Source: Psychroserpens burtonensis DSM 12212 (GTDB lineage: Bacteria > Bacteroidota > Bacteroidia > Flavobacteriales > Flavobacteriaceae). Taken from it: a stretch of 64,000 nucleotides of DNA. A program made the position numbers and the translations under genes. The notes under the pieces are model-generated. The model was not told the DNA's origin and made no database searches. It saw nothing but the letters and a program-made list of their open reading frames with translations. Each line of letters opens with the position of its first letter. Position 1 is the stretch's first letter. Where the stretch lies: contig NZ_KE384348.1 in the NCBI RefSeq assembly GCF_000425305.1, positions 1-64,000 of the forward strand, read 5' to 3'. Below are positions 1 through 16,292 of this stretch, piece by piece.

Positions 1-246
1 TGGGATGATTACCAATTCAGCAACACGTCTTGTGCTTGGGAGAATCAAGGATCACAACCTTCAGAACCTACAGCAACGAACTGTTGGGATAATTACCAGT
101 TCAACACCACATCTTGTACTTGGGAAAATATAGGAACTCAAGATACCGAGCCTACTCCAATGAATTGTTGGGATGATTACCAATTCAACACCACATCTTG
201 TACTTGGGAAAATATAGGAACTCAAGATTCGGAGCCTACGACAGAA
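1..246 (+). repeat. In-frame 84-bp (28-residue) tandem repeat
   Basis: Three complete units lie head to tail from the window edge, with tryptophan codons of the CWD(D/N)YQF motif at 1, 85 and 169. A diverged fourth copy (CYETAAF) begins near 247 with 81-bp spacing. Each unit has a conserved Cys-Trp at its start and a TSCxWEN motif in the middle. The second and third units are nearly identical in DNA, which suggests recent duplication or slippage. The array continues left of the window, so total copy number is unknown. Confidence 0.9.
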
Positions 247-786
247 TGCTATGAAACAGCAGCATTTAATAGTACATCATGTGCTTGGGAAATAACCAAT
301 AATGGTTCAGGTATAACGTATTATGCCGATACAGATAATGATGGGTTTGGAGATCCTGCCAATTCAATTATTGCCTGCTCATTACCGACTGGGTTTGTAA
401 TTGACAATACGGATTGTGATGATACTAATAATTCAACCTACCCCGGAGCAACAGAAATACCCAATAATGGTATCGATGAAAACTGCGATGGTACGGATGA
501 TAGTACATTAGGAAATGAAGAAATTAATGACCGAGATATTGCTATTAGACCAAATCCTTTTAATTCAGTAATAACAATTCACCTACCACTAAGTTTCAAT
601 GGTAGTGAATTTGAAATTAATATTTATGATCTAAATGGAAGAGTTGTATACAAGAACAGGAATTCTAGTATCAATGGTTCTATAATTATAAATGAATTAG
701 ATAATTTAGAAGTAGCTCCCTATTTTATTAAAATTTCTAGTACTAATAATGGTATAACTGTTATCAAGAAACTAATAAAATATTAG
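1..786 (+). CDS. T9SS-sorted surface protein, 3' end (repeats, MopE-like domain, sorting domain)
   Basis: The 5' end lies outside the window; the frame is open from base 1. In order, the visible part contains the Cys/Trp-rich 28-residue repeats, a MopE-like putative metal-binding module (about 325-505; [13 protein letters not shown], then [13 protein letters not shown], then [12 protein letters not shown], rich in Asp with paired Cys), and a C-terminal type A T9SS sorting domain (RPNPF, then YDLNGRVV, then a short basic KKLIKY end). The protein should be exported by Sec, then passed through the outer membrane by T9SS and anchored or released. The repeats have the look of extracellular stalk or disulphide-linked repeats, but their function is not known to me. 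An intrinsic terminator follows directly. Confidence 0.85.
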
Positions 787-824: not shown

Positions 825-946
825 ATCCGATTTAAAAATAAAATCATGAATAATAGTCTATTTCTGTAATAATTAGTCTTAAATATATTTTTTTTTAAAA
901 ACCTGATTATCAAATATTTAATAAATAACATATGTATTTCGTCGAT

Positions 947-954
947 TATATTCG
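947..954 (+). promoter_or_regulatory. Candidate -7 element of the first giant paralogue
   Basis: TATATTCG differs by one base from the Bacteroidetes -7 consensus TAnnTTTG and lies 76 nt before the ATG. It aligns in position and context (TGTATTTCGTCGAT before it) with TAAATTTG 77 nt before the second paralogue. This shared placement is the main support. No clear TTG -33 element was found. A second match, TACATTTG at 975-982, is an alternative. Confidence 0.4.
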
Positions 955-1022
955 CCTTTCACAGAGTTATTATATACATTTGAACATAATTTTATTAGTC
1001 CCAAACTAAAATTTAACCGCTT

Positions 1023-4000
1023 ATGAAAATATCTACACTTTTGCTAAGAAAGTATACTATGGTATTTAGTATATTTTTATTGTCAGCTATCGCTTTTTCT
1101 CAAACTGCAGATTTCAATGTACAACATGTTCAAGATGATATCGGAAATACTGGAGGAACAAATACAAGTTTCGCCGAAGTATCCTCTATCAATAGTGCAT
1201 TTGCCTTAGCCAATAACAACCGTAAATCAAATGCTGGCTCTGAGGAATCAGGTGGTAATTTAGATGGTGATGATGTCTCTGGAGCTAGAGTATTAACTGC
1301 TAACGGTACATTATCTTATTACAGAGAGTCTGGTTCATCTAGTACAGACATGAGATTCAATACCTCTATTTGGGAGTATATGGGTGCACCAGGTGGAGAT
1401 AATGAAATGATTATTCGTGGCCGTTATGTTGTGAGTTTAAACGGAACTAACAACAGTACAACTGAAGCGCTAACCGGAATAACAAATGCCAATAACTGTA
1501 TCCCATTTATTACAGGGATTAGAAATGATGCTACTGATCAAGATTCAGATTCTGGAACCGCTATCGCTTATTTAGAAAACGCTAGTACCCTAAGAATTCA
1601 AAAGGGCTCCAATGCAAATCAAGTAGTGGTGTATATCACTCTTGTAGAGTTTACAGGAAGTAACTGGAATGTACTTCATGGAGATTCTGGAAATGCAGCA
1701 GATGATACTGGTATAATAACATTAAGAAATGGGTCTGATGGCACAGGAACAGCCACAAACGTAAGCAACTGGAATGATGCTGTTATTTTTGGACAACATA
1801 GAGGTGATATGACAAGTAGTGGCGTAAATGACGCTTTAGCAGATAATTGGCCAGTTTTTGATCCTGGTTCTAATAACCAAAGAGTTGATTGGGCTTTTGA
1901 TTCAAATCATGACTCAGATGCTTCAAATAGTAATAGACATTTTGTGCATGTGTTAGTTAACGATGATATGAATGTTACCCGTTATCAAGATACAAATAAT
2001 GATGCTGGAGAGACAACACTTAATATAGCAAGCGCTGGTCTATCTAGTGCTAACGAAGCCCTAATTGTAGGATCTTCGATAACATCTGGTGGTGGTCAAG
2101 CCTATGCCAGAGGATGGAGAAACTATTACATAAAATCAGAGACTCAAGCAGCTCATTGGTCTCATAGAAGTGGAAACTCTATGAGTCATGAAATTCAAAT
2201 CGTCGATTTGTCTGGATTAACATCTACTAACTATTGTAGTTCATGGGGCACAACTACTTATGATACTGGGATTACTAATGTAACTTTTAACACAATTAAT
2301 AATTCAGATGGATCTCCAAAAGATAACGGTTACGAAGATTTCACGTCCATATCAACGAGTGTAGCTCAAAGCACTTCTCATAATTTATCGGTTAGTGTGG
2401 ATACTGATGGAGGTTATCAAGTGCACACATTTGCATGGATAGATTGGAATCAGGATTCAGACTTTCTGGATGCTGGTGAAATTTATGATTTAGGGAATAC
2501 TAATGTGGATGGTCCAATTGCTGCATTTCCAATTACGATTCCTGGAACTGCATCATTAGGTTCTACACGAATGCGTATTTCAACAAAATATAATAGCGAC
2601 CCATCAAGTTGTGATACAGATATTGATGGAGAAGTTGAAGATTATACAGTTAATATAACTGGTGGTTCTCCAATTCCAGAAATTAATGTTCAAGGAAATG
2701 CTGTAACTATAAACGATGGTGATACAACACCCGCTATCGCAGATGACACTGATTTTGGAACCGTAAACACAACAGGTGCGACTAATGTTGAACAGACATT
2801 CACCATTCAAAATACAGGTAGTGCCGCTCTTTCTATTGGTAGTATTACAATAGGTGGTGCACATTCTGGAGATTTTACTCTAACCACGTCACCTGCAACT
2901 TCAGTAGCGGCTTCTGGAAGCACAACTTTCGTTATAAGATTTAATCCTAGTGCAGATGCCCTAAGAACTGCGTCTGTAAGTATTGTTAATGGCGACAGTG
3001 ATGAAAACCCGTATAATTTTAATATACAAGGAACGGGTTCAACACCTGCACCAGAAATAAATATTCTAGGAAATTCTACTACTATTGTAGATGGTGATAC
3101 AACTCCAGACTTTTCTGATGATACAGATTTTGGAACTGTTGATATTACTGACGGAACTAATGTAAATATATTCATTATCCAAAATAATGGGACACTTGAT
3201 TTAACATTATCAGGAGGTTTTCCTTATGTTACTATTGATGGAACACATAGTGCAGATTTTACACTAACGACTATTCCTTCTAGTGTAATTAATCCTAGTG
3301 GAAATACTACTTTTGCTATTACATTCAATCCAAGTGCCCTTGGACTTAGAACAGCTAACATTACTATTGCAAAGAATGATAATGATGGAGCCCCATATAA
3401 CTTTAATATTCAAGGTACCGGCTACGTGGCACCTCCTTGTGGATCTTCGGTCTTGCATAGTGCTACATTTGAAAGTGGTTTAGAAGGATGGACATCTGGT
3501 GGTGGTGACGCTGTAAGAGTTAATAATACGACTTGGGCATTCAACGGTGCTTATAGCTTAAGAGTAAGAGACGATGATGCTGCAGGTAATGCCTCTTCAT
3601 TTTCATCTCCTCTATTTGATATTTCATCTTACGACAAAATAGACTTTAAATTCTTTTTCAAACCTGACGGAATGGAAACAAGCGAAGATTTCTTTATTGA
3701 ATACAGTAGTGATAGTGGTTCAAATTGGTCAATTATAGGAACTTTTGTAAGTGGAATTGTCGCAAATAAAAATGCTGATTTTGAAGCAACAACTACTCCT
3801 ATTGGCTATAGTAAAACGGTGACCTTATTTAGAACAGATCATACGTTTCCTGCTGGTAACAACGCACAATTTAGAGTACGTTGTGATGCCAATGAAAATG
3901 ATGATATGATTTATCTAGACGATATAACAATTTCTGCAACGTCATTTTGTACACCTACAGAAGCTCCTGGTGGAGTTGCATCTGATTTAGATTTATGGTT

Positions 4001-7000
4001 AAAAGCAGACCAAGTAGATGGAATTACGTATGCTGCAGATGGCTCTGCCGTAAGTCAATGGGCTGATAATGGCAAAGGAAATAACGCTAATGTTGTTGTT
4101 ACTGGCCAAGCACCTGTTTATAGAAACAGTATTGCTAGAAATATCAATTTTAATCCTGTAATTGATTTTACAAACGATAATACTACTGCTAATCGTGATA
4201 TGACTTATGTCATAAACGATGGAAGTAGACAAGAACTTCAAGGAACAGGTGGATTTAATACCAATGACATATTTATAGTATTAATGCCAGACCCAACGAT
4301 TACGACGACTATGATTCCTTTGGATACGTTTACAAGTAGAGATCCAGATGGTCAAACATATACTGAAGATGTTACAGGATTGGGATATGGTGCGTATACG
4401 GGAAGGTTTAGTAATGAAAGACTGACATATTGCATTGCCACTACAAATGAAAATTCAACTACTTCTCCTGAGAATGGATATGGAAGAGCAGATACAAACT
4501 CAGGTACAGATTACAACCAAATACAGATTGTAAATATTAGACAAAATACTGCAGATACTGATATGGAATTATATTTCAATGCCAATCAAGTTGGTAATGA
4601 GACTAATGATATTTCAAAATATAAAATGATTAATAATGGTCGTTTCTGGCTGGGACGTAGTCAATATTGGAATGGCAGTTTTGATGGCCGTATTGCTGAG
4701 GTAATTACTTATGGAGCAAGACAATCAGATGTGAATTTAACACAAGAAAGAAATAGAGTTCAATCTTATTTAGCTATAAAATACGGAATTACTCTAGGCG
4801 TTAACGGTACAACTCAAGATTATGTTAATAGTGATGGTAATGTCATCTGGGATCAATCAACAGATAGTGGTGTCTACAACTATGATATTGCTGGAATTGG
4901 AAGAGATGACTCTTCAGAATTAAACCAAAAACAATCTAGAAGTGTTAACGATGATTTTGATGGTGCAGACCCTATTACTAGCAGAACACAAGGAATCCTA
5001 ACAATGGGATTAAACGATATTTACAATACTAATAGAGACCATATTTCTTCAAACCCAACAACTTTTGATGATAAACAGTTTTTAGTTTGGGGTAATAATG
5101 GTGCTAACTTAAACTTAGCGGCCTCAGTGGTTTCTGTTAATATGAGTGCTGGCATCTCGCCTGCCCTTACAACTAATGTATCTTTTACAGCGATGCAACG
5201 TGTTTGGAAGGTTGAAGAAACTGGTGGAGATATCCCCTCTGTTAAAGTAAGAATACCACAAAGTGCTATAAGAAATATTACACCTCCAGGAAGCTTCTAT
5301 ATGTTTATATCCAGCACCGGTGTATTTGATCCAACTGCAGATTATAAAGTGATGACAGCCGATGGAAATGGTAATTTAGAAACTAACTATGATTTTGATG
5401 GCACAAAATACGTCACTTTTGGATATGCTCCTCAAGTATTGGTTGAACGTTCTGTTTATTTTGATGGTAATACGGATTACATCGATGTGGAAAATAAATT
5501 AAATCTTAATTCTTCTGGTTTCACAATTTCAGCATGGATAAAGAGAGACGCTGCAGATAGCGGAACTAAATCTATTGTATCTAAAAGAGATGTTTCATTT
5601 TCTACTGGATATGACTTTAGAATTTTAAATAATAATGTATTAAACATTACATGGAAAAATCCGAGTAGTAGAACACTCACCTCTGCGACTTCAATTCCAG
5701 ATGATGAATGGCATCATGTTGCTGCAATTTATGATGGATCTACTGTAAAACTTTATATTGATGGTGTTGAAGATGCTTCAGCAAATTTAACAGCTCCATT
5801 AGACACTAATGACTCCTTTTTTATTGCAGCTGCTGGAAAAAACAGTCCGTCGCAACACTTTAGAGGAAATATTGATGAAGTGCGTGTTTGGGATACAGAG
5901 TTAACGCCCACACAGCTCAGATTTATGATGAATCAAGAAATTGAGGACAACTCTAATTTTATTAGTGGTAAATCATTACCAACAACAATAACAAAAAATG
6001 ACGTGGCTCTTATTCCATGGTCTCAATTAGCAGGATATTACCCAATGTCTGTGTATACCTATACCAATACTGAAGATGCTTCAGGTCATGGTAATCAAGG
6101 TGCGTTAAGAAATCTAAATACTTTAGATAGACAAACAGCTCCATTACCATATGTCTCGCAAACCGATGGAGATTGGTCCAATGATGCTACTTGGTTAAAT
6201 GGTGCAGTCCAAGCATTGCCTAATGAATTATCTATTGTAGATGGATTAACACCCATTGATTGGAACATCATTCGCCTAAGTCATAATATTACAATTGATA
6301 CTGAAATTGTTTTAGGAAGAGACAGACAAGTCTTAGGACTCTATGTCGATGCTGGAGAATTAACAGTTAATGGTAATAACACAGATGCTTTAGCCGGTAA
6401 CGGATTAACAGTATCTCACTATTTAAAACTAGATGGTAAAATTGATCTTGAAGGACAATCTCAACTAGTGCAAGGCATTGGAAGTGATCTAGACCCAACA
6501 TCATCAGGTACATTAGAAAAGGATCAACAAGGTACTGCAGATGTGCATACATACAACTACTGGTCTTCACCAGTAGGTGACACCAATGCCACTACAAACA
6601 ATAATTCATACTCCGTTACAGATGTTATGTATGACGGTGTAAACCCAATCAACTTTATTACTGCAGGATATGACGGGTCTGATGGTTCAACAATCACTAT
6701 TGCTGATTACTGGATTTGGAAGTTTGCCAATCAACCAGATGGCGATTATTCTGCATGGCAACATGTGAGAAGAAATGGTACATTACTAGTAGGTGAAGGG
6801 TTTACTATGAAAGGTCCAGGATCTGGAACTATTACAGATCAGCAAAACTATGTTTTCCAAGGCAAACCAAATAACGGCGATATCAACTTAACACTCAACG
6901 CTGGTAACGATTACCTCATTGGTAACCCCTATCCTTCTGCCATTAATGCGAATACATTTATTACAGATAACGGACCAACCATTGCAGGCTCTGGGGCAGA

Positions 7001-8039
7001 TCCATTAATTAGTGGAACCCTTTACTTCTGGGAACATTGGGGAGGCGGAAGTCATAACCTGTCTGAATATCAAGGGGGTTATGCAACGTATAACTTCTCT
7101 GGTGGTGTTGCGGCTCCTTCGTTAGGAACCAACGACCCAAATGTAGGGACAGGTGGTACGCCTACAAAAATTCCAGGTCTTTATATTCCTGTGAGTCAAG
7201 GTTTCTTTGTTATTGGAGAAACTACAGGCAACATTAATTTCAATAATGGACAACGTGCCTACCAAAAGGAAAAATCTACAGGTGCAGATAGCTCTATATC
7301 TATAAGAAGCTCTGATGGTACAGCTACTGCCAATGATGACAATGAAGCCATTGATGAACGTATGAAATTTAGAATTGGATTCAACTCCATAAACACCATT
7401 CATAGACAACTATTATTAACCATTGATGAGGCAACCACAACCGGTTATGATTGGTCTTATGACGCGATGACTTACGATAACCAAATGGATGATTTGTATT
7501 GGATGATTGATGACCAGCAGTATACGATTCAAGCAAGTAATGTAGCAGAACCTGATACTGTATATCCACTTGGAATTAACACAGAAGATGATGGATTAAA
7601 TACAATCACTATTGATGCCTTAGAGAATGTACCACAAAGTATAGGTGTTTTCATTCATGATCTAGAAGATGATACTTATCATAATCTTAGAGCAAATGAT
7701 TTCCAATTCTTCTTAGCTGCAGGTGAGTATTCAAACAGGTTTGAATTGACCTTTAGTGATGCCAATGCAGATACGCTTGAAGTTGATGAATTACTACTTA
7801 ATACCATTGATGCGTTCTATAATATAGAAACAGAGAGCGTAGCCTTATACAACCCTAATTTTGTAAATGTAAAGTCTATAGAATTATACAACCTTATGGG
7901 CCAACAAATAACAAAAATCAAAGATATTTCAGAACTGAACTATTCTGAATATGAAGTTAAGAACCTAAGCACTGGAACTTATATTATTAAGATAGATACT
8001 TTAAACGGCCTACTATCTAAGAAAGTTTTAGTAAAGTAA
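1023..8039 (+). CDS. Giant T9SS-secreted multidomain protein (GEVED, two ASH-like, jelly-roll, LamG, sorting domain)
   Basis: This is a 2338-residue secreted protein. It has a signal peptide (MKIST to about residue 27, FSQ cleavage) and an N-terminal region of about 370 residues that I cannot assign. A GEVED domain follows (about 405-545; WIDWNQDSDF, GEVEDYTV). Next come two HYDIN/ASH-like choice-of-anchor repeats (about 552-670 and 676-800, each PEIN, DFGTV, FNPSA, YNFNIQGTG). Then there is a MAM-like jelly-roll (about 805-970; SATFESGLEGW), a region starting GGVASDLDLWLKADQ (about 980-1150) seen in many Bacteroidetes surface proteins, and a LamG/concanavalin domain (about 1476-1640; YFDGNTDYID, DDEWHHVAAIYDG). 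It ends in a T9SS type A sorting domain (last 85 residues). The likely role is adhesion or glycan binding at the cell surface; no catalytic motif was seen. It is followed by a shorter paralogue. Confidence 0.88.
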   Translation: MKISTLLLRKYTMVFSIFLLSAIAFSQTADFNVQHVQDDIGNTGGTNTSFAEVSSINSAFALANNNRKSNAGSEESGGNLDGDDVSGARVLTANGTLSYYRESGSSSTDMRFNTSIWEYMGAPGGDNEMIIRGRYVVSLNGTNNSTTEALTGITNANNCIPFITGIRNDATDQDSDSGTAIAYLENASTLRIQKGSNANQVVVYITLVEFTGSNWNVLHGDSGNAADDTGIITLRNGSDGTGTATNVSNWNDAVIFGQHRGDMTSSGVNDALADNWPVFDPGSNNQRVDWAFDSNHDSDASNSNRHFVHVLVNDDMNVTRYQDTNNDAGETTLNIASAGLSSANEALIVGSSITSGGGQAYARGWRNYYIKSETQAAHWSHRSGNSMSHEIQIVDLSGLTSTNYCSSWGTTTYDTGITNVTFNTINNSDGSPKDNGYEDFTSISTSVAQSTSHNLSVSVDTDGGYQVHTFAWIDWNQDSDFLDAGEIYDLGNTNVDGPIAAFPITIPGTASLGSTRMRISTKYNSDPSSCDTDIDGEVEDYTVNITGGSPIPEINVQGNAVTINDGDTTPAIADDTDFGTVNTTGATNVEQTFTIQNTGSAALSIGSITIGGAHSGDFTLTTSPATSVAASGSTTFVIRFNPSADALRTASVSIVNGDSDENPYNFNIQGTGSTPAPEINILGNSTTIVDGDTTPDFSDDTDFGTVDITDGTNVNIFIIQNNGTLDLTLSGGFPYVTIDGTHSADFTLTTIPSSVINPSGNTTFAITFNPSALGLRTANITIAKNDNDGAPYNFNIQGTGYVAPPCGSSVLHSATFESGLEGWTSGGGDAVRVNNTTWAFNGAYSLRVRDDDAAGNASSFSSPLFDISSYDKIDFKFFFKPDGMETSEDFFIEYSSDSGSNWSIIGTFVSGIVANKNADFEATTTPIGYSKTVTLFRTDHTFPAGNNAQFRVRCDANENDDMIYLDDITISATSFCTPTEAPGGVASDLDLWLKADQVDGITYAADGSAVSQWADNGKGNNANVVVTGQAPVYRNSIARNINFNPVIDFTNDNTTANRDMTYVINDGSRQELQGTGGFNTNDIFIVLMPDPTITTTMIPLDTFTSRDPDGQTYTEDVTGLGYGAYTGRFSNERLTYCIATTNENSTTSPENGYGRADTNSGTDYNQIQIVNIRQNTADTDMELYFNANQVGNETNDISKYKMINNGRFWLGRSQYWNGSFDGRIAEVITYGARQSDVNLTQERNRVQSYLAIKYGITLGVNGTTQDYVNSDGNVIWDQSTDSGVYNYDIAGIGRDDSSELNQKQSRSVNDDFDGADPITSRTQGILTMGLNDIYNTNRDHISSNPTTFDDKQFLVWGNNGANLNLAASVVSVNMSAGISPALTTNVSFTAMQRVWKVEETGGDIPSVKVRIPQSAIRNITPPGSFYMFISSTGVFDPTADYKVMTADGNGNLETNYDFDGTKYVTFGYAPQVLVERSVYFDGNTDYIDVENKLNLNSSGFTISAWIKRDAADSGTKSIVSKRDVSFSTGYDFRILNNNVLNITWKNPSSRTLTSATSIPDDEWHHVAAIYDGSTVKLYIDGVEDASANLTAPLDTNDSFFIAAAGKNSPSQHFRGNIDEVRVWDTELTPTQLRFMMNQEIEDNSNFISGKSLPTTITKNDVALIPWSQLAGYYPMSVYTYTNTEDASGHGNQGALRNLNTLDRQTAPLPYVSQTDGDWSNDATWLNGAVQALPNELSIVDGLTPIDWNIIRLSHNITIDTEIVLGRDRQVLGLYVDAGELTVNGNNTDALAGNGLTVSHYLKLDGKIDLEGQSQLVQGIGSDLDPTSSGTLEKDQQGTADVHTYNYWSSPVGDTNATTNNNSYSVTDVMYDGVNPINFITAGYDGSDGSTITIADYWIWKFANQPDGDYSAWQHVRRNGTLLVGEGFTMKGPGSGTITDQQNYVFQGKPNNGDINLTLNAGNDYLIGNPYPSAINANTFITDNGPTIAGSGADPLISGTLYFWEHWGGGSHNLSEYQGGYATYNFSGGVAAPSLGTNDPNVGTGGTPTKIPGLYIPVSQGFFVIGETTGNINFNNGQRAYQKEKSTGADSSISIRSSDGTATANDDNEAIDERMKFRIGFNSINTIHRQLLLTIDEATTTGYDWSYDAMTYDNQMDDLYWMIDDQQYTIQASNVAEPDTVYPLGINTEDDGLNTITIDALENVPQSIGVFIHDLEDDTYHNLRANDFQFFLAAGEYSNRFELTFSDANADTLEVDELLLNTIDAFYNIETESVALYNPNFVNVKSIELYNLMGQQITKIKDISELNYSEYEVKNLSTGTYIIKIDTLNGLLSKKVLVK

Positions 8040-8246
8040 GATTAAAATATAATAAAATCGCAGACGATATTAAAAGGTAAAATAACAATATTTTCTGAGC
8101 ATTTTATAACGTAATAACCTATTTAAGACAAGGAACTACTTGTTAGAATCCTAAAATAATTGGATATATAAGAATTACCGTTAAATATCATTTTTACTAC
8201 TAACTCATTATCAGTGTTTTAAAATAAATAAGTGCATTTCAACGAA

Positions 8247-8254
8247 TAAATTTG
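8247..8254 (+). promoter_or_regulatory. Candidate -7 element of the second giant paralogue
   Basis: TAAATTTG is a perfect TAnnTTTG match 77 nt before the ATG, at the position homologous to the candidate upstream of the first paralogue. The leader between it and the ATG also carries the shared block CCCAAACTAAAATTTAACC. No TTG -33 element is visible. Confidence 0.5.
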
Positions 8255-8323
8255 CGTTTAAAGGAGTTAAAAGGTATATTACCCTACAATTTAATTAGTC
8301 CCCAAACTAAAATTTAACCGCCT

Positions 8324-11300
8324 ATGAAAATTTCTACACTTTCTCTAAAAAAGTATACGATAATATGTTGTATATTTTTATTGTCAGATATCACATTTTC
8401 TCAAATTGCAGATTTCAATGTAAACTATATTAAAAATGATCTAGTAAATACTGGAGCAACAAACACAGGTATCACAACTGATTCAGAAATCACTCTTGAT
8501 GAAACTGGTTTCTTACCACCTCCTTGTACATCCTCTGTCTTGCATAGTGCTACATTTGAAAGTGGTTTAGAAGGATGGACTTCCGGTGGCGTTGATGCTG
8601 CAAGAATAAATGATGCTTCTTGGGCATTCAATGGCTCTTATAGTCTAAGATTAAGAGACGATGATGCTGCTGCAGGTAATGCCTCTTCATTTTTATCTCC
8701 TATACTGGACATAACAGGTTATGACAAAGTAGATTTTAAGTTTTTCTTCAAACCAGATAGTATGGATTCTACTCACGATGGTTCAGGAACTAAGACCTAT
8801 ACAGAAGAGTTATATATAGAGCACAGTAGTGATGGCGGAAGCTCATGGACAATAATTGCGACTTATGAAAGTGGTGAGGTTTTTAGAAAGACTGCCGATT
8901 TTGAATCTACTTCTACTCCTATTGGATATGGTAAAATTGCAACACTATTAGCTACGAATCATACATTTAATTCAAATAGCAGGTTTAGAGTACGTTGTGA
9001 TGCTAGTGAAGATGATGATATGGTTTATATAGACGATATCACAATCTTAGCGACATCATATTGCACACCAACAGAAGCTCCCGGTGGAGTTACATCTGAT
9101 TTAGATTTATGGTTAAAAGCAGACCAAGTAGATGGAATTACTTATGCTGCAGATGGTTCTTCTGTAAGTCAATGGACAGATAATGGTAAAGGAAACAATG
9201 CCAATGTCATGGTAAGTGGACAAGAGCCATCCTACATAAATAATATAGCTCGTAACATTAACTTCAACCCAGCAATAGATTTTGTGAATGATCATACTAC
9301 TGCAAATACTGATATGACTTATGTTATTAATGATGGAAGCAGACAAGAACTTCAAGGAACTGGCGGATTTAACACTAATGACATATTTGTTGTATTAATG
9401 CCTGACCCGTCAATCACAACCGCAATTCTTCCATTGAGTGTATTTACAAGCAAGGATCCAAATACAGATTCCTATGCTGAAGATGTTACTGGTTTTGGTT
9501 ATGGTGGCTATACAACTCGATTGGATAACGAACGATTAAGTTATTGTATTGGTACAACTTCTGAAACGGTAAGTAATCCAGCCGAGAATGGATATGGAAG
9601 AGCAGATACTAATAGTGGAACTGATTATAATAAGATTCATATTGTAAATATTAGACAAAATGCTTCAGATACAGACATGGAATTATATTTCAATGCCAAT
9701 CAAGTTGACAACGAAACTAATGATTTAGCGAAATATGCTATGATTAATAATGCTAAATATTTCCTAGGAAGAAATCAATATTGGAATGGTAGTTTTGATG
9801 GCCGTATTGCTGAGGTAATTACGTATGGATCAAGACAATCAGATGTGAATTTAACTCAAGAAAGAAATAGAGTTCAATCTTATTTAGCTATAAAATACGG
9901 AATTACTTTAGGTGTCAATGGTACAACTCAAGACTATGTTAATAGCGATGGTAATGTCATATGGGATCAATCTACAGATAGTGGCGTTTACAACTATGAC
10001 ATCGCAGGTATTGGTAGAGATGATGCTTCGGAATTAAACCAAAAACAATCTAGAAGTGTTAATGATGATTTTGATGGTGCTGACCCTATTACTAGTAGAA
10101 TACAAGGAATCCTAACTATGGGATTAAATGAAATCTACGATACTAATAGAGACAATATTTCTTCAAATCCAGTCAACTTTGATAACAATGAATATTTAGT
10201 TTGGGGTAATAATGGTGCTAACTTAAACTTAGCTGCCTCAGTTATTTCTGTTAATATGAGTGCTGGTATTACTCCTGTTCTTATAACTGATGTATCTTTT
10301 ACAACAATGCAACGTGTTTGGAAGGTTGAAGAAACTAGTGGAGATATACCCTCTGTTAAAGTAAGAATACCACAAAGTGCTATTAGAAATATTACACCTC
10401 CAGGAAGCTTCTATATGTTTGTATCGAGTACTGGTGTATTTGATGCAACTGCAGAATATGCCGTTATGACAGCCGATGGAAATGGTAATTTAGAGGCTAA
10501 CTATGATTTTGACGGCACAAAATATGTCACCTTTGGATACGCTCCCCAAGTAGAGGTTGAACGTTCTGTTTATTTCGATGGTAGTGTTGATTACATCGAT
10601 ATGGAAGATAAATTAAATCTTAATTCTTCTGGTTTTACAATTTCAGCATGGATAAAGAGAGACGCTGCAGATAGTGGAACTAAATCTATTGTATCTAAAA
10701 GAGATGTTTCTTTTTCTACTGGATATGACTTTAGAATTTTAGATAGTAACGTATTAAATATTACATGGAAAAACCCTAGTAGTAGAACACTAACCTCTGC
10801 GACTTCGATTCCAGATGATGAATGGCATCATGTTGCTGCCATTTATGATGGATCAAATGTAAAACTCTATATTGATGGTGTTGAAGATGCTTCAGTAAAA
10901 CTATCAGCTCCCATGCGCACTAATGACTCATTTTTCATAGCTGCTGCTGGAAAAAATAGCCCATCACAATACTTTAGAGGAAACATTGACGAAGTACGTG
11001 TTTGGGATACAGAGTTAACTCCTGCTCAACTAAGGTTTATGATGAACCAAGAAATTGAGGACAACTCTAATTTTGTAACTGGTAAAACATTACCTACAAC
11101 AATCACAAAAAATGACGTGGCTGTTATTCCATGGGCTCAATTAGCAGGATATTATCCAATGTCTGCTTATACCTATACAAATACTGAAGATGCTTCAGGC
11201 AATGGTAATCAAGGGGCTTTAATAAACCTTAATACTTTAGATAGACAAACGGCTCCATTACCATATGTATCACAAGCAGATGGAGATTGGTCTAACAGTG

Positions 11301-13153
11301 CTACTTGGTTAAATGGTGCAGCCCAAGCTTTACCTAACGAATTATCTATTGTAGACGGATTAACACCAATTGATTGGAACATCATTCGCGTAAGTCATAA
11401 TATTACAATTGATACTGAAATTGCCTTAGGAAGAGACAGACAAGTCTTAGGGCTCTATGTTGATGCTGGAGAATTAACAGTTGACGGTAATAACGCAGAT
11501 GCATCTGCTGGTAACGGCTTAACAGTATCTCACTATTTAAAACTAGATGGTAAAATTGATCTTGAAGGGCAATCTCAACTAGTGCAAGGCATTGGAAGTG
11601 ATTTAGACCCAACATCATCAGGCACATTAGAAAAAGATCAACAAGGTACTGCAGATCTTCACACCTATAACTACTGGTCTTCACCAGTTGGTGAAACTAA
11701 TGCAACAACAAATAATAACTCATACTCTGTTGCAGATGTTATGTATGACGGAGTAAATCCAATCAACTTTATTAATTCGGGATATGACGGATCTGATGGC
11801 TCAACAATCACTATTGCTGATTATTGGATTTGGAAATTTGCCAATCAACTCGATTACGATTATTCTGCATGGCAACATATGAGAAGAAATGGCACACTAC
11901 TAGCAGGTGAAGGATTTACCATGAAAGGTCCAGGATCTGGAACTATTGTAGATCAACAAAACTATGTTTTCCTTGGAAAACCAAATAATGGTGATATAAA
12001 TTTAACCCTTAACGCTGGTAACGATTACCTGGTTGGTAACCCATACCCTTCTGCCATTAATGCGAATACATTTATTACAGATAACGGACCAACCATTGCA
12101 GGCTCTGGTGCAGATCCATTAATTAGTGGAACCCTTTATTTCTGGGAACATTGGGGAGGCGAAAGTCATAACCTATCTGAATATCAAGGTGGTTATGCAA
12201 CATATAACTTCTCTGGTGGTGTTGCTGCTCCTTCGCTAGGAACCAACGACCCAAATGTAGGTACAGGTGGAACGCCTACAAAAATTCCAGGTCTTTATAT
12301 TCCTGTGAGTCAAGGTTTCTTCGTTATTGGAGAAGCTACTGGTACTATTAACTTCAATAATGGACAACGTGCCTACAAAAAAGAAAAGTTTTCAGGTGCA
12401 GATAGCTCCGTATTTGTAAGAAGCTCTGATGCGACAGCTAATGCAAGTGATAACAATGAAGCCATTGATGAACGCATGAAATTTAGAATTGGATTCAACT
12501 CCATAAACACAATTCATAGACAACTATTATTAACCATTGATGAGGCAACCACGACAGGTTATGATTGGTCATATGACGCGATGACTTATGATAATCAAAT
12601 GGATGACTTATATTGGATGATTGATGACCAACAGTATACTATTCAAGCAAGTAATGTCGTAGAACCTGACACTGTATATCCAATCGGAATTAAAACAACA
12701 GATGATGGATTAAACACAATTACTCTTGATGACTTAGAAAATATACCAAACAATATGGGTGTTTTCATTCATGATCTAGAGAATGACACCTATAATGATC
12801 TTAGAGAAAATGATTTCCAATTCTTCTTAGCTGCAGGTGAGTATTCAAACAGGTTTGAATTAACATTTAGTGATGCTACTGAAGACACACTTGAAGTTGA
12901 TGAGTTACTACTTAAAACAATTGATGCGTTCTATAATCTAGAAACAGAAAGCGTAGCCTTATACAACCCAAATTTTGTTGATGTGAAGTCTATTCAATTA
13001 TACAACCTTATAGGCCAACAAATAACCAAAATTAAACATATTTCAGAACTGGACTATTCTGAATATGAAGTTAAGAACCTTAGTACTGGAACGTATATTC
13101 TTAAGATAAATACTTTAAGCGGTTTACTATCTAAGAAAGTTTTAGTAAAGTAA
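8324..13153 (+). CDS. Giant T9SS-secreted protein, shorter tandem paralogue
   Basis: This 1609-residue paralogue of the preceding gene has the same signal peptide type (MKISTLSLKKYT, cleavage near FSQ). After about 40 residues it joins directly to the jelly-roll (about 68-240; CTSSVLHSATFESGLEGW). It therefore lacks the unassigned N-terminal region, the GEVED domain and both ASH-like repeats. It then follows the same order: GGVTSDLDLWLKADQ region (about 250), LamG domain (about 747-910), a DGDWSNSATWLNG segment, a GNPYPSAINANTF segment, and a T9SS type A sorting domain ending in KKVLVK. The LamG-to-end part is nearly identical to that of its neighbour, also in DNA. Each gene has its own promoter region, so expression could be independent. 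The most likely history is tandem duplication followed by deletion or gain of the N-terminal modules. Confidence 0.88.
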   Translation: MKISTLSLKKYTIICCIFLLSDITFSQIADFNVNYIKNDLVNTGATNTGITTDSEITLDETGFLPPPCTSSVLHSATFESGLEGWTSGGVDAARINDASWAFNGSYSLRLRDDDAAAGNASSFLSPILDITGYDKVDFKFFFKPDSMDSTHDGSGTKTYTEELYIEHSSDGGSSWTIIATYESGEVFRKTADFESTSTPIGYGKIATLLATNHTFNSNSRFRVRCDASEDDDMVYIDDITILATSYCTPTEAPGGVTSDLDLWLKADQVDGITYAADGSSVSQWTDNGKGNNANVMVSGQEPSYINNIARNINFNPAIDFVNDHTTANTDMTYVINDGSRQELQGTGGFNTNDIFVVLMPDPSITTAILPLSVFTSKDPNTDSYAEDVTGFGYGGYTTRLDNERLSYCIGTTSETVSNPAENGYGRADTNSGTDYNKIHIVNIRQNASDTDMELYFNANQVDNETNDLAKYAMINNAKYFLGRNQYWNGSFDGRIAEVITYGSRQSDVNLTQERNRVQSYLAIKYGITLGVNGTTQDYVNSDGNVIWDQSTDSGVYNYDIAGIGRDDASELNQKQSRSVNDDFDGADPITSRIQGILTMGLNEIYDTNRDNISSNPVNFDNNEYLVWGNNGANLNLAASVISVNMSAGITPVLITDVSFTTMQRVWKVEETSGDIPSVKVRIPQSAIRNITPPGSFYMFVSSTGVFDATAEYAVMTADGNGNLEANYDFDGTKYVTFGYAPQVEVERSVYFDGSVDYIDMEDKLNLNSSGFTISAWIKRDAADSGTKSIVSKRDVSFSTGYDFRILDSNVLNITWKNPSSRTLTSATSIPDDEWHHVAAIYDGSNVKLYIDGVEDASVKLSAPMRTNDSFFIAAAGKNSPSQYFRGNIDEVRVWDTELTPAQLRFMMNQEIEDNSNFVTGKTLPTTITKNDVAVIPWAQLAGYYPMSAYTYTNTEDASGNGNQGALINLNTLDRQTAPLPYVSQADGDWSNSATWLNGAAQALPNELSIVDGLTPIDWNIIRVSHNITIDTEIALGRDRQVLGLYVDAGELTVDGNNADASAGNGLTVSHYLKLDGKIDLEGQSQLVQGIGSDLDPTSSGTLEKDQQGTADLHTYNYWSSPVGETNATTNNNSYSVADVMYDGVNPINFINSGYDGSDGSTITIADYWIWKFANQLDYDYSAWQHMRRNGTLLAGEGFTMKGPGSGTIVDQQNYVFLGKPNNGDINLTLNAGNDYLVGNPYPSAINANTFITDNGPTIAGSGADPLISGTLYFWEHWGGESHNLSEYQGGYATYNFSGGVAAPSLGTNDPNVGTGGTPTKIPGLYIPVSQGFFVIGEATGTINFNNGQRAYKKEKFSGADSSVFVRSSDATANASDNNEAIDERMKFRIGFNSINTIHRQLLLTIDEATTTGYDWSYDAMTYDNQMDDLYWMIDDQQYTIQASNVVEPDTVYPIGIKTTDDGLNTITLDDLENIPNNMGVFIHDLENDTYNDLRENDFQFFLAAGEYSNRFELTFSDATEDTLEVDELLLKTIDAFYNLETESVALYNPNFVDVKSIQLYNLIGQQITKIKHISELDYSEYEVKNLSTGTYILKINTLSGLLSKKVLVK

Positions 13154-13280: not shown

Positions 13281-14651
13281 TTATATCAGCACATCTATCA
13301 ACTCTTCTAATGTCACTTCTTGCTGATCTCCAGTTCCCATGTTTTTTAATGTGAATGTATTCGAAGCCATTTCAGATTCGCCTAATAAAATCACAAACGG
13401 AATATTACGCTTATTCGCATAATTAAATTGTTTGATTGTTTTCTTATTATCTGGGAATAACTCAGCACTTACACCAACGTCTCTAAGAGATTTGATTGCT
13501 TTCATACTCGCAATCGCCTCTGCTTCTCCAAAATTAATGAAGAGTACTTTTACCGTATTGGTAATTGTTTCTGGAAACAAACCTAAATCTTCAAGCACTA
13601 ATGCAATGCGGTCTAAACCAAAACTAACCCCAACACCACTCATATCTTTGAGACCGAAGATTCCAGTCAAATCATCATAACGACCTCCTCCACCAATAGA
13701 TCCCATATGAACACCTTCTGGAGCAGCAACTTCAAAAATCGCACCTGTGTAATAATTGAGTCCGCGAGCAAGAGTTACATCCAATTGGAGTGTTGCCGTT
13801 TTTAAACCTAAGGTGGCAATCCCTGTATTTATAAATTCTAATTCTTCAATTCCTTTTTTTCCTTCTTCAGACGTCTTAAGGATTGTCTTTAATTCTGCTA
13901 TTTGATTACCAAAATCACCTTTTAAAGTAAATAATGGTTGAAGTGTTGTTATTCCTTCTTCGGAAATCCCCTTACTTCGCATTTCGTCTTTTACCTTCTC
14001 CTCTCCTATTTTATCTAACTTATCTAGAGCTACAGTAAAGTCGATGAGTTTGTCTTGAGCCCCAATAACTTCTGCTATTCCAGACAAAATTTTACGGTTA
14101 TTAATTTTTATGGTAACACCTTCTAGTTTTAAAGCACTAAAAACAGCATCATACAATTGTACAAATTCTACTTCTTGCCATAAAGAATTACTCCCAACAA
14201 CATCTGCATCACACTGATAAAACTCTCTAAAACGACCTTTTTGTGGCCTATCTGCTCTCCAAACAGGTTGGATTTGATAACGCTTAAAAGGGAAATCAAT
14301 CTCGTTTTGGTGTTGTACGACATACCTTGCAAACGGAACCGTTAGATCGTAACGAAGGGCTTTTTCTGAGAGACTAGACGTCATTTTATTAGAGTCTTTT
14401 GAAGTATATAAATCCTCATTCACTTTACTCAAGTAATCACCAGAATTCAAAATCTTAAAAATCAAGCGATCGCCTTCTTCTCCATATTTACCCATCAAGG
14501 TGTCTGAATTTTCAAAACTTGGCGTTTCAATAGGTTGAAATCCGAAAATTTCAAACTTCGTCCGTATTGTATTAAAAATATAGTTTCGCTTTGCGACCTC
14601 TTGCGGATTAAAATCTCTCGTTCCTTTTGGGATGCTTGGTTTTTGTGCCAT
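13281..14651 (-). CDS. hisS: Histidine--tRNA ligase
   Basis: Class II aminoacyl-tRNA synthetase charging tRNA-His in the cytoplasm. The motifs visible are motif 2 ([14 protein letters not shown], with the FRxE core), the HisRS-specific [10 protein letters not shown] and GGGGRYD loops near the middle, motif 3 ([11 protein letters not shown]), and a C-terminal anticodon-binding domain (VLFINFG to the end). The length of 456 residues is normal. I chose the start [14 protein letters not shown]; a start 12 bases upstream (MENI) is open but does not fit the family N-terminus. It is a single-gene unit convergent with the T9SS gene. Confidence 0.96.
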
Positions 14652-14663
14652 AATATTCTCCAC

Positions 14664-15053: not shown

Positions 15054-16292
15054 ATGTTTTCATTAGTTAGAGAAAATATCCGTATTGCTTTTGATTCTAT
15101 TAGAAGTCAATTACTTCGTACCATACTCACCATTTTAATTATAGCCATTGGAATCACTGCACTCGTAGGGATTTTAAGTGCTGTCTCAGCCCTAGAGAGC
15201 ACGATTTCTAGTGATTTCTCTTCTATGGGAGCAAATACCTTTAATGTACAGCGTAATGATTTTACATCGCAACGACGCTCTAATGATAACCAAAAAATTA
15301 ATCCAGTTATCAACTACAGACAAGTAAAAGCGTTTGAGGAAGATTATAAGTTTCCGTTTACCAGCACATCTCTTTCGTTTTTAGGGACGCGATCAGCAGA
15401 AGTCAAATATGAAAACGAAAAAACAGATCCTGAGGTTCAGGTTTTTGGTGTTAATGAAAATTTTATTCAAAATTCAGGATTAGAAGTAGCATCTGGCCGC
15501 CCATTAAATTACTTTGATGTCCAAAACAGCAATAGCGTTTGTGTAATTGGTAGTGATCTTCAAAAAGCCTTATTAGCTGATGTGAATCCCATAAATAAAA
15601 CGATTAGTATTAGAGGGTCTAAATTTAAAGTCATTGGCGTACTTAAAGAAAAAGGTGCAACGTTTGGTAACAATCAAGATTTAAGAGTATTAATGCCTCT
15701 TCAAAAAGCACGAACTATTTTCACAAACCCAAACATTAATTATAGTTTGAGCATAAAAACAGATAAAAAGGATATGCTTGAAGGCGCTCAAGATGAGGCC
15801 ATCGTATTATTTAGAAATATTAGAGGTTTAAATCCTATCGAAGAGAGCAATTTTGGAATTGAGCGTAGTGATGACCTCATTAATAGAATTGGTTCTATTA
15901 CAGGCGTGCTTTCAACCGCTGCCTGGATCATAAGTATTATTACCATTTTTGGTTCTACCATTGCACTATTAAACATGATGCTAGTTTCTGTTTCTGAGCG
16001 CACAAGAGAGATTGGCGTGCGTAAAGCCTTAGGTGCTAAAAGTGGAACGATTGCTTTTCAGTTTTTTATTGAAACGATTATTATTGGTCAATTAGGAGGA
16101 CTATTAGGAATTGTACTCGGTCTTCTTTTAGGTTACGGATTCGCATCTGTTGTTGATTTTAACTTTGTTTTCCCGTGGAGTGCCGTAATTTGGGCAAGTG
16201 TGATTACGTTTGTTGTTGCTGTAATTTCTGGGTCTTATCCTGCGAGTAAAGCTGCGAAATTGGATCCTGTGGAGTCTTTGAGGTATGAGTAG
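15054..16292 (+). CDS. MacB/FtsX-type ABC transporter permease
   Basis: 412 residues with the layout of a MacB-family permease. One N-terminal membrane segment (about 20-45; ILTILIIAIGITALVG) is followed by a large periplasmic MacB_PCD domain (about 50-280) and three C-terminal membrane segments forming the FtsX domain. The FtsX domain carries the usual SERTREIGVRKALGA cytoplasmic loop and ends SYPASKAAKLDPVESLRYE. Such proteins usually couple to a LolD/MacB-type ATPase for efflux, lipoprotein release or peptide export. No ATPase or membrane fusion partner lies in this window, so the substrate cannot be inferred. Confidence 0.9.
   Translation: MFSLVRENIRIAFDSIRSQLLRTILTILIIAIGITALVGILSAVSALESTISSDFSSMGANTFNVQRNDFTSQRRSNDNQKINPVINYRQVKAFEEDYKFPFTSTSLSFLGTRSAEVKYENEKTDPEVQVFGVNENFIQNSGLEVASGRPLNYFDVQNSNSVCVIGSDLQKALLADVNPINKTISIRGSKFKVIGVLKEKGATFGNNQDLRVLMPLQKARTIFTNPNINYSLSIKTDKKDMLEGAQDEAIVLFRNIRGLNPIEESNFGIERSDDLINRIGSITGVLSTAAWIISIITIFGSTIALLNMMLVSVSERTREIGVRKALGAKSGTIAFQFFIETIIIGQLGGLLGIVLGLLLGYGFASVVDFNFVFPWSAVIWASVITFVVAVISGSYPASKAAKLDPVESLRYE

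Follow-up and report, generated by a model that had tools for sequence, protein, structure and literature searches.

How two neighbouring genes for very large surface proteins came to share most of their length and yet begin so differently is the question raised by a locus in Psychroserpens burtonensis DSM 12212 (assembly GCF_000425305.1). The window, by which we mean the whole stretch analysed (64,000 nucleotides; positions 1–64,000 of contig NZ_KE384348.1), comes from a genome of 68 contigs. Gene A (1023..8039, + strand) encodes a predicted T9SS surface protein of 2338 aa with the order N1, GEVED, D, D, jelly-roll, concanavalin-A-like (ConA-like), LamG and sorting domain. Gene B (8324..13153, + strand) encodes a tandem paralogue of 1609 aa that consists of an N1 stub, jelly-roll, ConA-like, LamG and sorting domain. 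In the ORF list the two are adjacent, on the same strand and upstream of hisS (13281..14663, − strand), the usual downstream neighbour of the A/B locus, beyond which lies an ABC-transporter-type permease (15054..16292); we take the names hisS and permease from sequence recognition. The first-pass annotation had called A and B tandem T9SS paralogues, and this is borne out by the same-strand ORFs and by 85% protein identity between A 799–2338 and B 61–1609; residues 1–56 are 59% identical. Domain scans also agree with it that LamG and the sorting domain are common to both proteins and that B is without N1, GEVED and both ASH-like repeats. At the very start of the window (1–786) is the C-terminal end of another T9SS type A protein, with a MopE-like metal-binding motif; its gene contains about 2.8 copies of an 84-bp repeat. 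The contigs of the window, G004, G020, G021 and G012 all begin inside what is apparently this same neighbour gene, perhaps because of its repeats.

The N1 module of A (1101..2216, +; aa 27–398) gave no Pfam match at E up to 1, in keeping with its earlier description as unassigned, and a sequence search of the PDB with the same limit likewise found nothing; among 8 other members three weak Pfam families appeared, each matching one member. An AlphaFold model of N1 from 9 sequences reached a pLDDT of only 39.6. The module is ∼373 aa long, with many invariant residues. It is followed by the GEVED domain (2385..2657, +; aa 455–545) and by two choice-of-anchor-D/HYDIN-ASH Ig-like modules (2676..3416, +; aa 552–798), where NF012200 (choice-of-anchor D; NCBIfam) finds two domains above cut-off. 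The jelly-roll of A (3435..3944, +; aa 805–974) has a CBM22/CBM16/MAM/cleaved-adhesin fold and the ConA-like domain (3972..4721, +; aa 984–1233) the fold of AbnA domain 4. LamG lies at 5463..5918 in A (+; aa 1481–1632) and at 10577..11032 in B (+; aa 752–903), and the T9SS type A sorting domain at 7827..8033 (+) and 12941..13147 (+), respectively. The sorting domains score 26.0 bits (A) and 24.6 bits (B) with TIGR04183, both above the NCBIfam cut-off of 23, and 25.2 and 26.3 with PF18962, just below the Pfam cut-off of 27. By inspection of the sequence starts, both N-termini are hydrophobic and end in FSQ, which makes them candidate Sec signal peptides.

The jelly-roll/ConA-like block was modelled by AlphaFold with 46 sequences at a pLDDT of 90.7. 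In a fold search, residues 1–170 of this model resemble the jelly-rolls of CBM22, CBM16, MAM and the Kgp cleaved adhesin (Z about 13–15) and residues 180–429 resemble AbnA domain 4 (Z 15.8–16.2), a ConA-like domain whose structure has been solved with arabino-oligosaccharide. On the strength of these modelled folds, the two domains may bind glycans. Receptor-binding domains of clostridial neurotoxins are also in the fold list; they share the beta fold, which shows no function. Surface display and adhesion of A and B are likely from established knowledge of T9SS cargo together with the folds, which lends support to the surface-adhesin role suggested for the pair in the first-pass annotation.

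Similarity along the shared part is uneven. The silent divergence (dS) between A and B is 0.40 over A 799–864, 1.29 over A 865–1213 and 0.36 over A 1214–2338. The 3′ part had been described as near-identical in DNA; it is 90.2% identical over A 1300–2338, and the best 60-codon window reaches 96%. The lower similarity reported near the jelly-roll does exist, but only over A 865–1213, since the first part of the jelly-roll (799–864) is as close as the 3′ part. The divergent block, of ∼1.07 kb, takes in the latter half of the jelly-roll together with most of the ConA-like domain; it occupies 8705..9775 in B (+; aa 128–484) and 3615..4661 in A (+; aa 865–1213). Compared with two orthologues, A has a dS in the block of 1.66 (G018) and 1.60 (G016), and over A 1214–2338 of 1.48 (G018) and 1.74 (G016). 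The A–B value in the block thus appears close to those between species, and the contrast with the jelly-roll region would arise from this stretch, at near species-level silent divergence.

The reading that we prefer, with a probability of roughly two in three, is a tandem duplication in this lineage, followed by deletion of the head of B and by recombination with a foreign allele. The first-pass annotation had instead proposed ongoing gene conversion toward the 3′ end. In the form of an older tandem pair, with 3′ ends kept alike by conversion and the jelly-roll side left to diverge, that proposal does draw on real features of the alignment: the dispersion of silent differences over the whole trunk is 2.21, with 0/5000 shuffles as high, and within the divergent stretch there is an A-like island (A 950–1021). 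Silent differences there number 13/60, against 17/33 in A 884–949 and 54/122 in A 1022–1187; A 884–1187 as a whole has a silent dispersion of 2.05 (p 0.0002) and a longest silent-identical run of 17 sites (p 0.012). It would also fit an older split that the 110 bases before the ATG of B are 74% like those of A, when the same bases of 19 orthologues are 75–85% like A; that B should be the less alike is not what a simple recent duplication predicts. The 3′ part itself, however, appears to hold nothing that points to recent conversion. Over A 1188–2338 the 193 differences at 1001 silent sites are evenly spread (dispersion index 1.08, p 0.076), and the longest identical silent run does not exceed what shuffles give (p 0.70); a near-identical tract was not seen in 60-codon windows. 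Equal dS on both sides of the block is expected from duplication plus import, whereas under conversion the unconverted stretches would have to lie between tracts of equal age. Moreover, in Algibacter and relatives the long and the ∼1060-aa copies fall into two separate old clades of 8 rows each; pairs of this type do not homogenise, and to judge from the trees their age shows that a locus can keep two forms over time without making them alike. We consider conversion unlikely; a large homogenisation of an older pair could in principle account for the pattern as well.

Where the divergence entered can be asked from the orthologues. Against four of them, the consensus-like copy over A 887–1167 is A (94 versus 32, rows summed), and from A 1168 on the differences split evenly (97 A-like, 108 B-like). 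In triples with five orthologues, the best segment joining A with the orthologue starts at A 861–865 and ends between 1213 and 1470, a score that in each of the five was reached by 0/2000 shuffles; a segment in the same region also comes out of all five B-first triples (p 0 to 0.0065). In a 21-row tree of the block, B pairs with a sequence from a Lacinutrix MAG, L091 (DNA 100/99, protein 97/98). The 3′ part of the same set joins A and B at 100/100 with L091 as outgroup. A and B are also joined in the trees of three 3′ trunk blocks (100/100; L033, in the wrong frame with 29 aa, was left out of these, and G011, cut by a contig end, out of the C3 tree) and in a tree of 78 rows that covers the last ∼560 residues (100). 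These conflicting trees of the block and the 3′ part would give both B and L091 a mosaic history, with an AU test against A+B in the block that returns p 0.032 for DNA and 0.27 for protein. The AU tests are not unanimous by sub-block either: D1 gives p 0.023 and D1+D2 gives p 0.24, and D2 alone places A and B together, weakly (51/94).

L091 is one 8.9 kb MAG contig and is itself mosaic along its length. It is Psychroserpens-like over about residues 300–750, and its 3′ part, first 300 residues and hisS are nearer Lacinutrix and Oceanihabitans relatives; a comparison of its 5′ flank with A is an unfair one, as A carries other modules there. Its two flanks are of the same kind, which makes a simple contig chimera less likely. 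Searches with the block of B found A as best match in its own genome (73%), then a 66% paralogue. Across 396 other genomes of a family sample, matches with E up to 1e-60 reached at most 63% identity; among the fetched loci, protein identity was 74% to L091 and 68% to the genus orthologues G010, G016 and G019. Import into B is the best reading of the block, short of proof. In the island, A and B group together in two tree sets (84/68 and 83/85), which with the patchy silent differences suggests either two imported tracts or a short A/B exchange at A 950–1021 after the import. By the model, the probably exchanged stretch of B spans parts of two carbohydrate-binding-like domains.

A speeding up of the binding domains of B by relaxed or diversifying selection, with no recombination, would account for two of these observations, namely that the non-consensus changes in the block are mostly in B and that the A–B dN is higher there (0.179) than in the 3′ part (0.046). 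It is set back by the rise of dS along with dN (1.29 versus 0.36), so that dN/dS hardly moves (0.14 versus 0.13), and by the pairing of B with a Lacinutrix sequence in the block; we regard it as improbable, more so than conversion. The dN/dS of 0.13 in the 3′ part makes both copies look constrained.

The direction of the change at the N-terminus is given by a remnant. The earlier description left loss and gain of the modules side by side, and of the two it is loss, in B, that stands. Behind its leader B retains the first ∼23 residues of N1 (8405..8473, +; aa 28–50), with codons 28–50 at 80% DNA identity to A, and the alignment picks up again where the second D module of A ends. The missing part corresponds to about A 51–793, that is N1, GEVED and the two Ig-like D repeats. 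The N1 stub is missing from all 14 starts examined of orthologues with a J head, an S head or no head, and the persistence of the N1 start behind the leader of B indicates, as far as sequence can tell, that B is a deletion form whose head has been lost. That A instead gained four modules and the short B is ancestral is very improbable: short J-trunk forms do occupy the site in G004, G012, G020 and G021, but they lack the ∼23 N1 residues with which B begins, and a head is present in 15/19 other orthologues.

The leader of the two genes had been singled out as a shared block with aligned promoter elements. The sharing is confirmed, in that 867–1172 and 8169–8473 form one DNA block (309 alignment columns, 77%) running from the promoter region into the coding start; it is not special to the pair, as 19 orthologues have the same. 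The conserved promoter/leader block of A (867..1022, +) and its counterpart in B (8169..8323, +) contain a direct repeat of the TGCATTTCA type, with the two copies about 20 bases apart, and then a TAnnTTTG-like box that we take to be a promoter element. This arrangement precedes A, B and the 19 orthologues; the TTTG of the box is missing in B and in G018. Sites of the repeat with up to 3 mismatches number only 4 in the genome, which makes a wide regulon unlikely. Within the coding start, leader codons 1–27 of A are 85% identical to B and at most 80% to any orthologue.

In genome sets with a single genome for each species, an orthologue occupies the A/B site in 19/22 other genomes of the genus (G017, with its copy split over contigs, was left out of the count); G007 and G022 gave no close match to A/B. 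In 16 of the 19 the next gene downstream is hisS, and the contig of G011 ends there. In G004 and G020 (L043 and L044) a permease is downstream instead, with no hisS between gene and permease. The stretches read around the 19 orthologues show no further copy beside the gene; in five of the genomes (G004, G020, G021, G012 and G002) the contig starts inside the gene that precedes the orthologue, and the C-terminus of that gene product is a different one. The orthologues range from 1552 to 3274 aa (G011 being cut by the contig end) and have 0 to 12 recognised modules before the trunk. Their heads, typed by eye, are N1 in five, J in seven, S in three and none in four; choice_anch_J/MAM heads are present in several. 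Mapped on a tree built from HisS plus permease for 19 genomes, G000 among them (G011 again left out; 4/16 inner branches starred), head type changes 8 times, with a minimum of 3 and a shuffled mean of 10.4, and as few as 8 changes occurred in 5/200 shuffles. Module content at the A/B site thus varies at an orthologous position, as in domain-shuffled surface proteins. A third paralogue (62%) lies at a different site (G000 C2:119011-123744; L003, L060), and its jelly-roll region is nearer the hisS-site genes than is its 3′ part. G010 and G016 have a second locus that resembles it.

Beyond the genus, hisS is present in 55 of the best 80 loci of named genomes (of 136 loci confirmed). Among these best 80 of 136, 17 have at least two trunk-matching ORFs of at least 900 aa within 350 bases of each other, as read by eye; smaller downstream ORFs (80 aa in L091, 291 aa in L089) were left out, as was an ORF in L085 that is cut by the contig end. 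The first ORF is longer than the second in 16/17 of the tandem loci (by 2 residues only in L129), L140 being the exception. In the 78-row tree A/B, L129, L101 and L090_2/3 cluster within their own genomes; L079, L110 and L140 are among those that do not. Because the Algibacter-type copies form two old clades, the 17 tandem loci are not 17 independent events. N1 was found once per genome in 17/299 family genomes of 16 genera, and hisS is in the stretch taken at 8/16 other fetched N1 loci, so N1 is not tied to the A/B site. At one Winogradskyella orthologue (L074, about 5915–7999) an insert of about 1 kb interrupts N1.

Put together, A and B would be tandem copies of a T9SS-secreted modular cell-surface protein at a site just upstream of hisS, a pair probably born by duplication within this lineage. 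After the duplication B would have lost about A 51–793, bringing its jelly-roll near the N-terminus, and a foreign allele would have replaced a stretch of ∼1.07 kb by recombination, as one tract or as two. The C-terminal domain is predicted to direct T9SS export and anchoring, the D repeats may serve as a stalk, and the head and the jelly-roll, ConA-like and LamG domains may bind glycans. A would then present an N1 tip on a stalk, and B would be a stripped body with altered glycan-binding domains. Head loss would place the jelly-roll of B near the tip.

A wider proposal, which we put forward tentatively as possible though doubtful, is that across the whole family Flavobacteriaceae the hisS-upstream site serves as a diversification locus. 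There a constant secretion trunk would receive N-terminal heads and mid-gene glycan-binding blocks interchanged by homologous recombination across species and genera, and repeated duplication with head loss would yield paired long-stalk and stripped adhesins of different specificity. With its fixed place on the chromosome, the hisS site lets one follow across genera how very large T9SS surface proteins are built up, exchange parts and are cut back, and the tandem pairs found there are natural experiments. For A and B, the tempting view that gene conversion acts at the 3′ end is corrected. Should the modules serve as phage receptors or as binders of algal or animal glycans, niche variation in marine Flavobacteriaceae would have one of its sources at this locus.

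SprB and RemA of Flavobacterium johnsoniae are large gliding adhesins of the Flavobacteriaceae, exported to the surface by the T9SS; A and B are likewise large surface proteins of this family, with predicted T9SS export. Among choice-of-anchor D and J proteins (NF012200, NF038128), A belongs by its two NF012200 domains, and B has neither a D nor a J domain in an NCBIfam scan at E up to 0.1. That T9SS surface proteins shuffle their domains is already known; in the literature searched, at the level of titles and abstract starts, no description of the A/B locus was found. The closest comparison is with Porphyromonas gingivalis, where, in the part of the account available to us, domain rearrangement and allelic exchange among T9SS surface adhesins gave a mosaic unrelated to the SNP phylogeny (PMC5266723). 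Like Kgp and HagA as described there, A and B are predicted T9SS surface proteins with adhesin-type domains, and their jelly-roll matches the Kgp K1–K3 folds at Z 13.6–13.9. They differ from Kgp and HagA in that no protease domain was found in A or B and in the module set of the locus (N1, GEVED, D, MAM and LamG). Whereas the exchange in P. gingivalis is, in the portion of that source consulted, among strains (PMC5266723), the exchange at the present locus, near hisS, would have taken place between species and genera.
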